The position numbers were made by a program, and so were the translations under genes. From assembly GCF_016820585.1 (NCBI RefSeq), contig NZ_JADHDX010000001.1, forward strand, positions 372,001 through 436,000: 64,000 bases of DNA, given 5' to 3'. Source of the DNA: Arthrobacter beigongshangensis. GTDB taxonomy: Bacteria; Bacillota; Bacilli; Bacillales_A; Planococcaceae. The notes under the pieces are model-generated. The model did not search any database, was not told the DNA's origin, and saw nothing but the letters and a program-made list of their open reading frames with translations. Shown piece after piece: positions 9,064 to 13,144 of the stretch (positions are counted from its first letter, which is position 1; every line of letters starts with the position of its first letter).

Positions 9064-10230
9064 ATGCTAGAATTTGATACGAATATCGACGCGCTTGCGG
9101 TTATCAAGGTAATCGGTGTTGGCGGCGGTGGGAATAATGCTGTAAATCGAATGATTGAACATGGTGTACGAGGTGTGGAGTTCATAGCAGTGAACACGGA
9201 TGCACAAGCTCTCAACCTTTCAAGTGCGGAAGTGAAATTACAAATAGGCGGTAAACTAACACGAGGGCTTGGAGCAGGTGCAAATCCGGAGGTTGGTAAA
9301 AAGGCTGCTGAAGAAAGTAAAGAACAGTTAGAGGAAGCGTTACGCGGTGCAGATATGGTATTTGTCACAGCTGGTATGGGCGGCGGAACAGGGACGGGTG
9401 CTGCTCCTGTTATCGCACAAATTGCCAAGGATCTTGGCGCACTGACAGTTGGTGTGGTTACAAGACCGTTTACATTTGAGGGACGCAAGCGTTCTACTCA
9501 AGCAATTGGTGGCATTACTGCGATGAAGGAATCTGTCGATACGCTCATCGTTATTCCGAACGATAAATTACTAGAAATAGTTGATAAAAATACACCGATG
9601 CTAGAAGCATTCCGCGAAGCGGATAATGTTCTACGTCAAGGGGTACAAGGGATCTCGGATTTAATCGCTGTACCGGGTCTTATTAACCTCGACTTTGCGG
9701 ATGTGAAAACAATTATGTCCAATAAAGGCTCAGCGCTAATGGGAATCGGGATGTCAACGGGTGAAAACCGGGCGGCAGAAGCGGCAAAGAAAGCTATTTC
9801 AAGCCCATTGCTCGAAACGTCTATTGACGGTGCAAAAGGCGTTTTGATGAATATTACGGGTGGTTCGAACTTGAGTCTATTTGAAGTGCAAGAAGCCGCA
9901 GATATTGTAGCCTCTGCATCAGATGAGGATGTCAATATGATTTTCGGATCTGTCATCAACGATGATTTAAAAGATGAAATTATCGTTACAGTTATTGCAA
10001 CTGGATTTAATGAAGCGCAACTAATGCAAGCGCGTCCTGCAAGAAGCGCAGGCTTCGGAACGGGTCGTCAACAGGCTGAACAATCAGCAACAACACAACA
10101 GCCGCTCACTCGTGAGCGTAGAGAAGAAGCGCCGCAGTTCCAACAACCAGAGCCAACGCGCCAGCAACAGAGCAGTCAGCAGGATGACACGCTCGATATC
10201 CCAACATTTTTACGCAATCGTCGTCGATAA
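9064..10230 (+). CDS. ftsZ: Cell-division GTPase FtsZ
   Basis: Tubulin-like GTPase that forms the Z-ring. The GTP-binding signature GGGTGTG lies near residues 106-112, and the NTD and DFADV regions of the polymer interface are present. A glutamine-rich, low-complexity linker (about residues 330-370) precedes the conserved C-terminal peptide [11 protein letters not shown], which binds FtsA, SepF and other partners; sepF is about 3.7 kb downstream. The 388-residue length is typical. AGGAGGAGAG precedes the ATG. A strong terminator follows. Confidence 0.98.
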
Positions 10231-10238
10231 AAAAAGAG

Positions 10239-10283
10239 AAGCTACGTCCTTGTCAATTTTGATGAGGACGTAGCTTTTTTATT
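10239..10283 (+). terminator. Terminator after ftsZ
   Basis: A 12-bp stem, AAGCTACGTCCT (10239-10250) paired with AGGACGTAGCTT (10265-10276), is followed by a T-rich run. It ends the division cluster. Confidence 0.9.
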
Positions 10284-10314
10284 TGAAAAAAAGATGCAGA
10301 AAAAGTGCAATATA

Positions 10315-10378
10315 TGTCGGTTATTTCATAGGATTTCCTCCTTGTTCCGACAAACATTTTAGCTTTTAAATGCTATCG
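10315..10378 (+). promoter_or_regulatory. spoIIGA promoter region with candidate Spo0A boxes
   Basis: TGTCGG at 10315-10320 and its inverse TCCGACA at 10346-10352 (reads TGTCGGA on the minus strand) resemble the Spo0A box TGTCGAA. A -10-like TGCTATCGT lies near 10370. In B. subtilis the spoIIG operon is activated by Spo0A-P at a sigma-A promoter. The fit to the 0A box is 6 of 7 at best, so this is a candidate. Confidence 0.5.
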
Positions 10379-10400
10379 TTGTTTGCAGGGAGGGCGGTCT

Positions 10401-11249
10401 ATGTACGGGGAAATCATTATTGGCGTGAATATGCTGTTCAATTATGCCATCCTGTCATTTGCGAACAAAGTAGGTAACGCTCATGCGACTCGAAGACGTC
10501 TCCTGCTCGCTTCCTTTGTAGGTGCACTACCTGTCACCATTTTTTCGTCATCCGCTGTCGCTGTTGTACTGTCTTTTATCGGCATGACCTATTGTGCTTT
10601 TGGCAAGGCTTTTGAGCCGTGGAAGAAATCTGCAACGATAGTGTTGATTGGAGCGGTATTTGCTGGTGGGTTATTAACAGCTTTCCATTTTCGCATCGAG
10701 ACAGTGAATTCTTCGTTGAATGTCCTTGCTTATGCAATCGTTGCCTATGCAGCTCTCTATGTCATGCATAAGAAATGGCTAGCTGTCAGGATAGCACGAC
10801 ATGTATCAGAATTGAAATCATTGTCAGTGCTTCATATATGGGGACAGGATATTCCGCTAACTGTGTTTGTCGATTCGGGAAATGGTTGTACGGAGCCACT
10901 GACTGGCGCGCCTGTCCATTTTGTTGCCCTAAAATCAGTCGATGCTTATTTACCTGAGGATTTGAAAGAGGCATTGTTGGCGTGGGATGCTCAAAATGGG
11001 TCTTCGCTAGCGGCGTTCCCAGATAGACATCAAAAATCACTGCGGCTAATTCGACTTGTAACGATTCAAGGACGTTCGTGGGCGGTAGGATTAAAATTTG
11101 AGCACTGGACAATTGAAAGCGGGAATTTGCTACAACCTGGCTATATCGTACTTACGGTAAATGATCGTCGGTACCCAGATGGTGCCCAAGCCATTTTACA
11201 CGTATCTGCAATGGAATCATTAAAAGGAGGAACTGTAGATGTTGCATGA
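10401..11249 (+). CDS. spoIIGA: Pro-sigma-E processing peptidase SpoIIGA
   Basis: Membrane aspartic protease that removes the pro-sequence of sigma-E in the mother cell after asymmetric division, in response to SpoIIR. The ATG at 10401 has GGGAGG eight bases upstream. About five membrane segments fill roughly the first 125 residues. The soluble C-terminal half carries the catalytic DSGN motif at residues 158-161. The product has 282 residues, somewhat shorter than the B. subtilis protein. The end overlaps sigE by 11 bases, the usual pairing of protease and substrate. Confidence 0.93.
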
Positions 11250-11949
11250 AATGAAAAAGTGGATGTCGGTAATTGCCAGCTTTTTTAAACGAAAAAACGG
11301 CGTATACTACATCGGAGGACATGAATCATTACCTAAACCATTAACACGTGAGGAGGAAGCAAAAGCAATTCATGCATTTATGGAGGGCGATATGAATGCA
11401 AGAGACACACTCATTGAAAAAAATCTTCGTCTCGTCGTGTACATTGCTCGTCGTTTTGATAATACCAATACGCATATCGAAGATCTCATTAGTATTGGAG
11501 CGATTGGACTTATCAAAGCGATTGAGACATTTAAAATTGATAAAAATATAAAATTAGCAACGTATGCATCGCGCTGTATTGAAAATGAAATTCTCATGCA
11601 TTTACGGAAAACGAATCGAACGCGCTCTGAAATCTCGTTTGACGAACCACTTAATTCAGATGCGGATGGTAATGAACTACTTCTTTCAGATATTCTTGGC
11701 ACAGATGAGCATATTATTACTGATGATGTTGAAAAGAAAATTGAACGTCAGCACATGATTGAGGCGATTGGAACGCTTGACGAACGAGAACGTTATATTA
11801 TGGAATGTCGATTTGGTTTGACTGGACAAGTGGAGATGACGCAAAAGGAAGTAGCAGAATTGCTTGGAATTTCCCAGTCCTATATTTCACGGCTTGAAAA
11901 GAAAATTATTATGGATTTACGCGAGAGGCTAAATCATTCCATCGTATGA
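11239..11949 (+). CDS. sigE: Mother-cell sigma factor pro-sigma-E
   Basis: Sigma-70 family factor for early mother-cell gene expression, made as an inactive precursor. The first about 23 residues form a basic/hydrophobic pro-sequence ending before YYIGG; by analogy with B. subtilis, SpoIIGA would cut within this region. Region 2 ([39 protein letters not shown]) and the region 4 helix-turn-helix ([22 protein letters not shown]) are intact. AAAGGAGG precedes the ATG, and the start lies inside the end of spoIIGA. Confidence 0.97.
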
Positions 11950-11976
11950 TGGTTGAAATTGGAGATGTGATTCCCC

Positions 11977-12005
11977 GCATATTCTGGATGACTGCGGACA
12001 GACTA
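11977..12005 (+). promoter_or_regulatory. Candidate sigma-F/sigma-G promoter for sigG
   Basis: GCATA (11977-11981) fits the forespore sigma -35 element, and GGACAGACTA (11996-12005) fits most positions of the -10 pattern. The 14-base gap is slightly shorter than usual. In B. subtilis sigG is transcribed by sigma-F in the forespore. The -35 and -10 lie within the hairpin described next. Confidence 0.5.
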
Positions 12006-12027
12006 CTGTTACAGTCATCTACAGAAT
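11981..12027 (+). promoter_or_regulatory. Long hairpin in the sigE-sigG interval
   Basis: ATTCTGGATGACTG (11981-11994) pairs with CAGTCATC-TA-CAGAAT (12012-12027): 14 base pairs with a two-base bulge and a 17-base loop. No T-run follows, so it is not an ordinary terminator. The 3' arm ends two bases before the GGAGGA ribosome site of sigG at 12030. Confidence 0.75.
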
Positions 12028-12042
12028 ACGGAGGAAGAGCGA

Positions 12043-12828
12043 ATGGTGCGTACAAGAGTAGAAATATGTGGAATCGATACGTCCGAATTGCCATTACTCA
12101 CGAATGAAGTGATGAAAGCAACGTTTATTAGGCTACAAAGCGGCGATCATTCCGCAAGGGAAGAGCTAGTCATCGGTAATTTGCGACTTGTTCTTAGTTT
12201 AGTTCAGCGTTTTGCGTATAGAGGCGAGCAAGCGGATGATTTATTTCAAGTCGGCTGCATTGGCTTACTAAAATCAATTGACAACTTCGACTTGAAACAT
12301 AATGTACGATTCTCAACGTATGCAGTGCCAATGATTGTTGGAGAGATTAAACGACATTTGCGGGATCATCATTCTATTCGAGTTTCAAGATCACTGCGCG
12401 ACATTGCGTATAAAGCAATTCGTGCGAAGGAACAATTTATCAATGATAACCAAAAGGAACCGCGCATTTCCGATTTGTCGGAAGCGACGGGAATACCCGC
12501 GGATGATATTTTGTTTGCACTCGATGCAATTCAAGATCCGATGTCACTCCATGAGCCAATTAATAGTGACGGCGGAGATCCCGTCTATATGATGGATCAG
12601 CTACAGGATAAAACGGTCTCAGAAGAACGCTGGTTGACGTATGTCGCTGTAAAAGAGACGGTATCTGAAATGGATGAGCGGCAGCAGACGATTCTTTCCA
12701 AGCGATTTTATTTAGGACAGACGCAGACGGAGATTGCAAAGGAATTAGGTATTTCGCAAGCGCAAATTTCAAGATTGGAAAAAAATGCAGTGAAAATTAT
12801 TCGGGATGGCATGGACCAGAAAATATAA
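12043..12828 (+). CDS. sigG: Late forespore sigma factor sigma-G
   Basis: Sigma factor controlling late forespore genes after engulfment. The 261-residue sequence has the SigG N-terminus (VEICGIDTSELP), region 2 with DDLFQVGCIGLLKSIDNFD and FSTYAVPMIVGEIKRHLRD, the IRVSRSLRDIAYKA segment, and a C-terminal helix-turn-helix (TQTEIAKELGISQAQISRLEKNA). GGAGGA is seven bases before the ATG. It follows sigE as in B. subtilis. Its leader holds a long hairpin and a candidate sigma-F promoter. Confidence 0.97.
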   Translation: MVRTRVEICGIDTSELPLLTNEVMKATFIRLQSGDHSAREELVIGNLRLVLSLVQRFAYRGEQADDLFQVGCIGLLKSIDNFDLKHNVRFSTYAVPMIVGEIKRHLRDHHSIRVSRSLRDIAYKAIRAKEQFINDNQKEPRISDLSEATGIPADDILFALDAIQDPMSLHEPINSDGGDPVYMMDQLQDKTVSEERWLTYVAVKETVSEMDERQQTILSKRFYLGQTQTEIAKELGISQAQISRLEKNAVKIIRDGMDQKI

Positions 12829-12833
12829 TTGTT

Positions 12834-12867
12834 AAAAACGAGATGCCAAAATGGTATCTCGTTTTTA
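12834..12867 (+). terminator. Terminator after sigG
   Basis: AAAAACGAGATGCC (12834-12847) pairs with GGTATCTCGTTTTT (12853-12866) with one G-T pair, ending in five Ts. Confidence 0.88.
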
Positions 12868-12895
12868 ATCATATAGTCATTCTAAGGAGGGGTTC

Positions 12896-13144
12896 ATGAT
12901 GAGATTTTCAGAAATTCAAAAAAAAGAAGTTATTGATGCAACGAAAGGTTCATTCCTTGGGTTTGTACAGGATGCGACGATTGACAGCAAGAATGGGAAA
13001 GTGGAGTCATTGCATGTAGGCGGTGGGGATCGAGGTTTGTTTTTCGAAGCTAAAGATAAGAATACAAAACGGGTTAGACTCGAGGATATTATGACAATCG
13101 GAAAAGATATTGTATTAGTTGGTAAAAAAGACAACGAAAAATGA
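12896..13144 (+). CDS. ylmC: YlmC/YmxH family PRC-barrel sporulation-associated protein
   Basis: Small PRC-barrel-like protein (82 residues) of the YlmC/YmxH family. It begins MMRFSEIQKKEVID and contains the GxxLGFVQDATID pattern typical of the barrel, with basic C-terminal residues. The exact role is unknown. AAGGAGGGG lies at good spacing to the double ATG (12896 or 12899). In B. subtilis it also follows sigG; the ABC-transporter gene ylmA (before it) and ylmD (after it) are not present here. Confidence 0.82.
   Translation: MMRFSEIQKKEVIDATKGSFLGFVQDATIDSKNGKVESLHVGGGDRGLFFEAKDKNTKRVRLEDIMTIGKDIVLVGKKDNEK

Follow-up and report, generated by a model that had tools for sequence, protein, structure and literature searches.

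The window, the whole stretch of 64,000 nucleotides of DNA that was analysed, had the gene order spoIIGA, sigE and sigG, all on the + strand. The sigE stop and the sigG start were 93 nt apart, with one direction of transcription throughout. The features of this region were as follows.

Upstream of sigE, + strand: spoIIGA (weak profile match, 82 bits against a cut-off of 210)
11239..11949, + strand: sigE, encoding SigE of 236 aa (NF006158 SigE, 349 bits against a cut-off of 339)
11971..11977, + strand: outer 5′ arm of the hairpin, UUCC and CCG, pairing with the Shine-Dalgarno region at 12029-12036 with A12032 bulged (MFE and centroid structures)
11977..11981, + strand: -35 element GCATA of a sigma-F/G-type promoter, read from the sequence
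11980..11994, + strand: 5′ arm of the main stem (7 + 8 nt), predicted fold
11996..12005, + strand: -10 element GGACAGACTA, read from the sequence
11997..12010, + strand: inner 5-bp hairpin at the apex, 11997-12001 with 12006-12010, predicted fold
12011..12013, + strand: predicted sigma-F transcript start, placed from the promoter position about 7 nt past the -10 element
12012..12028, + strand: 3′ arm of the main stem, with a bulge at 12020-12021; nearly invariant in the 58-row genus alignment
12030..12036, + strand: sigG Shine-Dalgarno sequence GGAGGAA, read from the sequence; all paired in the fold except A12032
12043..12828, + strand: sigG, encoding SigG of 261 aa from an ATG start (NF006071 SigG, 401 bits against a cut-off of 372)

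The promoter preceding sigG had the layout GCATA-14 bp-GGACAGACTA, which we take to be of the sigma-F/G type, the consensus assumed here agreeing with that used in Mearls 2018. Position 12013 was used as the sigma-F start in the energy calculations. A 14-bp spacing was present in 243 of the 268 class leaders located below; the passage of Mearls 2018 (PMC5942855) on PsigG spacing reports it for 14 of 15 Bacilli and calls it 'suboptimal'. An earlier note on this DNA had proposed that a transcript starting near 12012 would lack the 5′ arm of the hairpin. This was borne out, as the last base of the arm, 11994, precedes the -10 element that begins at 11996, so RNA from this promoter cannot carry the arm, whatever its exact 5′ end. 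The promoter had also been placed inside the stem; the two do overlap, but GCATA lies across the stem base and the -10 element in the apical part of the hairpin.

The main stem was predicted to comprise 15 bp between 11980-11994 and 12012-12028, in two helices (11987-11994 with 12012-12019, and 11980-11986 with 12022-12028) separated by a 2-nt bulge. The coordinates of the 14-bp stem described earlier (11981-11994 with 12012-12027) were right, the bulge at 12020-12021 and the fifteenth pair (11980/12028) having gone unmentioned. That stem had been said to lie directly before the ribosome site; it is present, but the structure is larger, extending to 11971 and taking the Shine-Dalgarno (SD) sequence itself into the pairing. 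In the outer helices CCG (11975-11977) was paired with CGG (12029-12031) and UUCC (11971-11974) with GGAA (12033-12036), which left one base of GGAGG (12030-12034) unpaired in the predicted fold. The hairpin in total had 22 pairs plus the inner 5-bp hairpin, with the SD occluded, and was kept in the MFE structure of a longer, 281-nt stretch. The energy of the 111-nt fold was -35.7 kcal/mol, whereas shuffled sequences averaged -23.42 (sd 2.97), giving a z of -4.13; one of 200 shuffles was as stable. Positions 11900-12100 gave no Rfam match at E<=1.

Being long, stable and intergenic, the hairpin could be a transcription terminator or an RNase processing site between sigE and sigG. We regard this as highly improbable: there is no U-run after the stem, a + strand terminator scan of 10200-12900 found none (at low sensitivity, as it also missed the evident hairpin and T-run after sigG), and a processing site would not need pairing with the SD.

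Opening of the SD core in the window was calculated to cost 7.7 kcal/mol in read-through RNA versus 1.1 kcal/mol in the predicted sigma-F RNA, and the corresponding MFE values were -35.1 and -1.6 kcal/mol (the latter for the leader plus 15 nt). In shuffles of the 5′ part that left the -35 and -10 elements unchanged, the cost of 7.7 kcal/mol was reached by one of 100.

A large hairpin of 20+ bp between sigE and sigG of B. subtilis has been proposed to block translation of spoIIG read-through RNA only, a proposal that the relevant passages of Mearls 2018 (PMC5942855) credit to Masuda 1988 and Sun 1991. The same passages state that this hairpin cannot form in PsigG transcripts, and an excerpt of PMC2530871 repeats that the read-through is not translated. 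Mearls 2018 also describes a small RBS hairpin of B. subtilis sigG, which is on the sigma-F/G transcript, lowers translation and has an energy of -6.0 to -8.9 kcal/mol (PMC5942855). Going by these passages, the mechanism put forward in the earlier note is not new and was already published for B. subtilis (PMC5942855). Its remark that B. subtilis is reported to limit sigG expression through leader structure merged the small hairpin of the sigma-F transcript with the large one of the read-through RNA.

The window hairpin resembled the large B. subtilis hairpin in lying between sigE and sigG, in having 20+ pairs, an occluded SD and a 14-bp promoter spacing, and in having its 5′ arm upstream of the predicted PsigG start and absent from PsigG RNA. 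The small B. subtilis hairpin also covers the sigG SD, but in the sigma-F/G RNA; the window's RNA folded weakly there, and a small RBS hairpin in that energy range was not found in the sigma-F leader plus 15 nt, at only -1.6 kcal/mol. The SD partner in the window was mainly upstream of the -35 element (11971-11977), whereas it was the -35/-10 spacer in most other Bacilli sampled. We consider the window hairpin likely to be a read-through hairpin of the B. subtilis type with a rewired 5′ arm, for which the comparisons below offer new support. No class-wide test of the large sigG hairpin was found in the searches made of open-access papers.

For these comparisons, relatives were drawn at genus, family and order level around the window's genome (G000), whose gene set suggests a Sporosarcina-like organism. 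Of 273 sigG loci located, five (L129-L132 and L145) had no start or SD by rule and were removed, leaving 268. A further 14 (L108, L112, L114, L143, L153, L154, L157, L158, L159, L174, L192, L194, L201 and L206) were excluded on the promoter score or for a leader of more than 75 nt, leaving 254; this filter removed nearly all of the long-leader family f22. The 254 leaders were reduced by similarity to 139, and with L177 left out of folding there were 138 non-redundant leaders. L069 was retained in the leader set although its promoter was wrongly picked. The 80 named loci were the best 80 of 561 and were rich in Paenibacillus and Bacillus. sigE was upstream and close in most loci, the sigE-sigG gap being below 250 nt in 249 of 268. 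Three of the excluded loci (L108, L112 and L114) had gaps of 319-504 nt, with the promoter far 5′ of the SD and extra sequence between, and L147 had a 909-nt gap resembling an inserted reading frame, with the promoter and hairpin kept.

The read-through cost of opening the SD was at least 2 kcal/mol above the sigma-F cost in 11 of 18 leaders of the window's genus, 23 of 26 from other genera of the family and 86 of 94 from the rest of the Bacilli. All 32 sampled families had this difference in at least half of their leaders. Against 100 motif-keeping shuffles (null 50) the mean rank was 39.7 for the genus, 22.3 for the family and 14.3 for the class, with Wilcoxon p values, not corrected for relatedness, of 0.16, 4.6e-5 and 7e-16 respectively. 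The SD partners were upstream of the -10 element in 125 of 138 MFE folds. In the read-through MFE folds, 75% of SD positions in the family and 83% in the class were paired with the -35/-10 spacer; this was 18% in the genus, where 43% were paired upstream of the -35 element. A sigma-F leader MFE of -6 or lower, counted with our own leader boundaries rather than by the published measure, was found in 54 of 94 other Bacilli, 0 of 26 family leaders and 3 of 18 genus leaders, and sigG had an ATG start in 48 of 94, 24 of 26 and 18 of 18 respectively. By these counts the window's family seems to have lost what restrains the proper transcript and mostly kept the read-through block.

Judged from the aligned leaders, the exact stem is poorly conserved in the genus and lost in one clade. 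In the alignment of 58 genus rows, 70.2% of the cells of the 22-bp stem were paired and one pair was changed on both sides. The inner 8 bp had 7 or 8 of 8 pairs in 11 of 58 rows, while the next helix had all 7 pairs in 29 of 58 and only 2 in 7 of 58 (the L044 type). Outer pairs reaching the SD were common in the genus. The L001 stem and an alternative register each had 1 pair changed on both sides, with shuffles averaging 2.2 and 2.3, and there were 15 cells with changes on both sides, above all 500 shuffles. A conserved genus-wide structure was sought with RNAalifold, which gave no consensus for the 58 distinct leaders of this alignment. The sigG leader (12012-12036) varied hardly at all across the genus, including rows whose 5′ arm had lost its pairing with it, so a second role of the 3′ arm or the leader is possible.

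Poor conservation of the inner pairs is what would be expected if the 14-bp inner stem were a local accident of the window species atop a conserved promoter and SD, and the genus rank test, like the genus swap test below, was not significant. We hold this to be unlikely in view of the fold z of -4.13, the single motif-keeping shuffle in 100 that equalled the window, the outer SD-reaching pairs common in the genus and the same logic in 32 of 32 families sampled.

In the swap test, which asked whether a species' promoter region pairs its own leader better than the leaders of other species, the own pairing was reached by 336 of 2000 permutations in the genus (not significant) and by 0 of 2000 in both the class and the family group. 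When each of 32 families was represented by a single leader (5 draws), the own energy was -24.9 kcal/mol versus -20.1 kcal/mol for swapped pairs, with z of -8.2 to -9.2 and 0 of 2000 permutations in each of the 5 draws; with both promoter motifs masked, z was -7.6 to -8.6. The stretch upstream of the promoter, used as a control, gave z of +0.1 to -1.9. The coding sequence control gave z of -1.5 to -3.2 (3 to 132 of 2000) and was not fully null, so a small part of the swap signal may be composition. The class-wide results of own against swapped pairs support selection for promoter-leader pairing.

Outside the class, the best 30 of 103 genomes with a match were sampled (L281-L310), of which 28 leaders were folded and 22 entered the swap test after removal of near-duplicates. 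For these leaders from elsewhere in the phylum, ranks averaged 45.7 (null 50; 28 leaders), a 2 kcal/mol difference was found in 6 of 28 leaders, and the own pairing was reached by 72 of 2000 permutations (22 leaders). The pairing signal in the 28 leaders outside the Bacilli was weak; a few had strong hairpins, for example L283, L308 and L309. sigE was not found upstream of sigG in 11 of the 30 outside-class stretches examined, and the contrast between the Bacilli and the other classes may therefore partly reflect gene order.

The inverted repeat overlaps the promoter, and it could act as DNA, as a protein-binding palindrome or through promoter geometry, with the RNA fold as a by-product. Strand and wobble tests bear on this. 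For own pairs, the gain was larger on the sense than on the antisense strand in a set of 120 leaders from outside the genus (0 of 5000); when each family contributed a single leader, this advantage was not significant (86 to 210 of 2000 permutations). Wobble pairs against A-C mismatches stood at 176:92 in own pairs and 933:659 in swapped pairs, a slight excess (p 0.03). These two tests lean towards selection at the RNA level without settling it. Outside the genus the SD is targeted by the spacer, which partners 75 to 83% of its positions, and the swap signal survives masking of both promoter motifs; a role at the DNA level is in our judgement quite improbable.

The explanation we favour, and consider probable, is that the hairpin is a transcript-specific translation block on sigG read-through RNA. 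RNA from upstream (spoIIGA-sigE) would carry 11971-11994, which would fold onto 12012-12036 and bury the sigG SD, and little SigG would then be made from it. RNA made with sigma-F (later sigma-G) would start at about 12011-12013, inside the hairpin, without the 5′ arm and with the SD open. The promoter DNA would thus also encode the arm that masks the SD in the wrong transcript. The sequence, fold, energy difference and class-wide own-over-swapped complementarity were established here by computation, whereas we infer the transcription start, read-through in the window's organism, an effect on translation and its purpose, which would be to have no SigG outside the forespore. The blocked read-through need not be that of the mother cell, and could also precede division. 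The same logic is seen in the protection of IS10/Tn10 from external transcription, where the start site is hidden in read-through RNA and open in the element's own transcript, but that is a mobile element in a Gram-negative host. Gene e (lysozyme) of phage T4 has a switch that works as proposed for sigG: in the account given in part of PMC3014915, long early transcripts form a hairpin that sequesters the SD, and late promoters are located where its 5′ strand is encoded, which lets late RNA escape. It differs in concerning a phage lysis gene and a late sigma factor, and is unrelated by descent.

A predicted terminator followed sigE in 14 of 98 class leaders, and their hairpins were equally strong (p 0.71). 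As the hairpin is not relaxed where sigE has a predicted terminator, this counts against a guard on sigE read-through alone. The idea of the earlier note that the hairpin could reduce sigG translation only on a wrong, mother-cell transcript is supported in part, by the geometry, the energies and the class-wide swap tests. The assignment of that transcript to the mother cell in particular, actual read-through in this organism and conservation of the exact stem in the genus did not gain such support, and the missing effect of a predicted sigE terminator does not fit a guard of this kind alone. The hairpin might instead give general insulation, blocking translation from any upstream transcript (vegetative, antisense-derived or residual). 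It was also strong in loci with gaps of 250-900 nt (for example L147, L196, L236, L242 and L246), and Mearls 2018 (PMC5942855) discusses the toxicity of SigG to vegetative cells of B. subtilis. The predicted terminators may however be leaky, and with gaps below 250 nt in 249 of 268 loci this alternative is poorly separable from sigE read-through; we think it a substantial possibility that falls short of probable.

Taking the block on read-through RNA together with the comparisons, a wider reading can be offered tentatively, at rather less than even confidence for the whole. The sigG promoter region of the Bacilli would be dual-coding, serving as sigma-F/G promoter DNA and as an anti-SD arm present in read-through RNA only; this would apply above all to the -35/-10 spacer. 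Promoter region and leader would have evolved together throughout the history of the class, and the 'suboptimal' spacing of 14 bp may belong to this second role or be tolerated on account of it. The arm of the window's genus would have moved upstream of and into the -35 element, and the family would rely on the block alone, with the small RBS hairpin and weak start codons largely lost. If this is true, a single stretch of DNA initiates the correct transcript and inactivates the wrong one, and two cell types sharing a gene pair need no terminator between the genes. The comparative signal, with its clear contrast to the other Bacillota classes sampled, turns a single-species proposal of 1988 into a prediction for the whole class, open to reporter tests.

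Between sigE and PsigG, a motif with the core AA[AT]TTGG was present at 11951-11962 (GGTTGAAATTGG) of the window. It was found in 59 of 61 genus stretches, 43 of 48 from the rest of the family and 3 of 140 from the rest of the class. The end of the motif was 13-14 nt 5′ of the -35 element in 98 of 102 genus and family stretches; the motif thus goes with the promoter, its distance to the -35 element being fixed even where that to the sigE stop varies. No AA[AT]TTGG regulon was found among the other genome matches, many of which were on sight without a promoter-like setting. Upstream of spoIIGA, Spo0A boxes were sought with the loose pattern TGNCGAA, which occurred at chance level in the window (49 versus 44.3 expected).

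The SigG of the window scored 382 bits against the TIGR02850 cut-off of 457, though it passed NF006071, and the TIGR02850 cut-off was missed by SigG in all eight family genomes with a match. On these profile scores, the SigG of the window's family is a divergent SigG lineage. The sigG of one genus member (L015, genome G060) contained an internal TAG. A hairpin and T-run, read from the sequence 3′ of the window's sigG at about 12835-12870, is likely to be a terminator.
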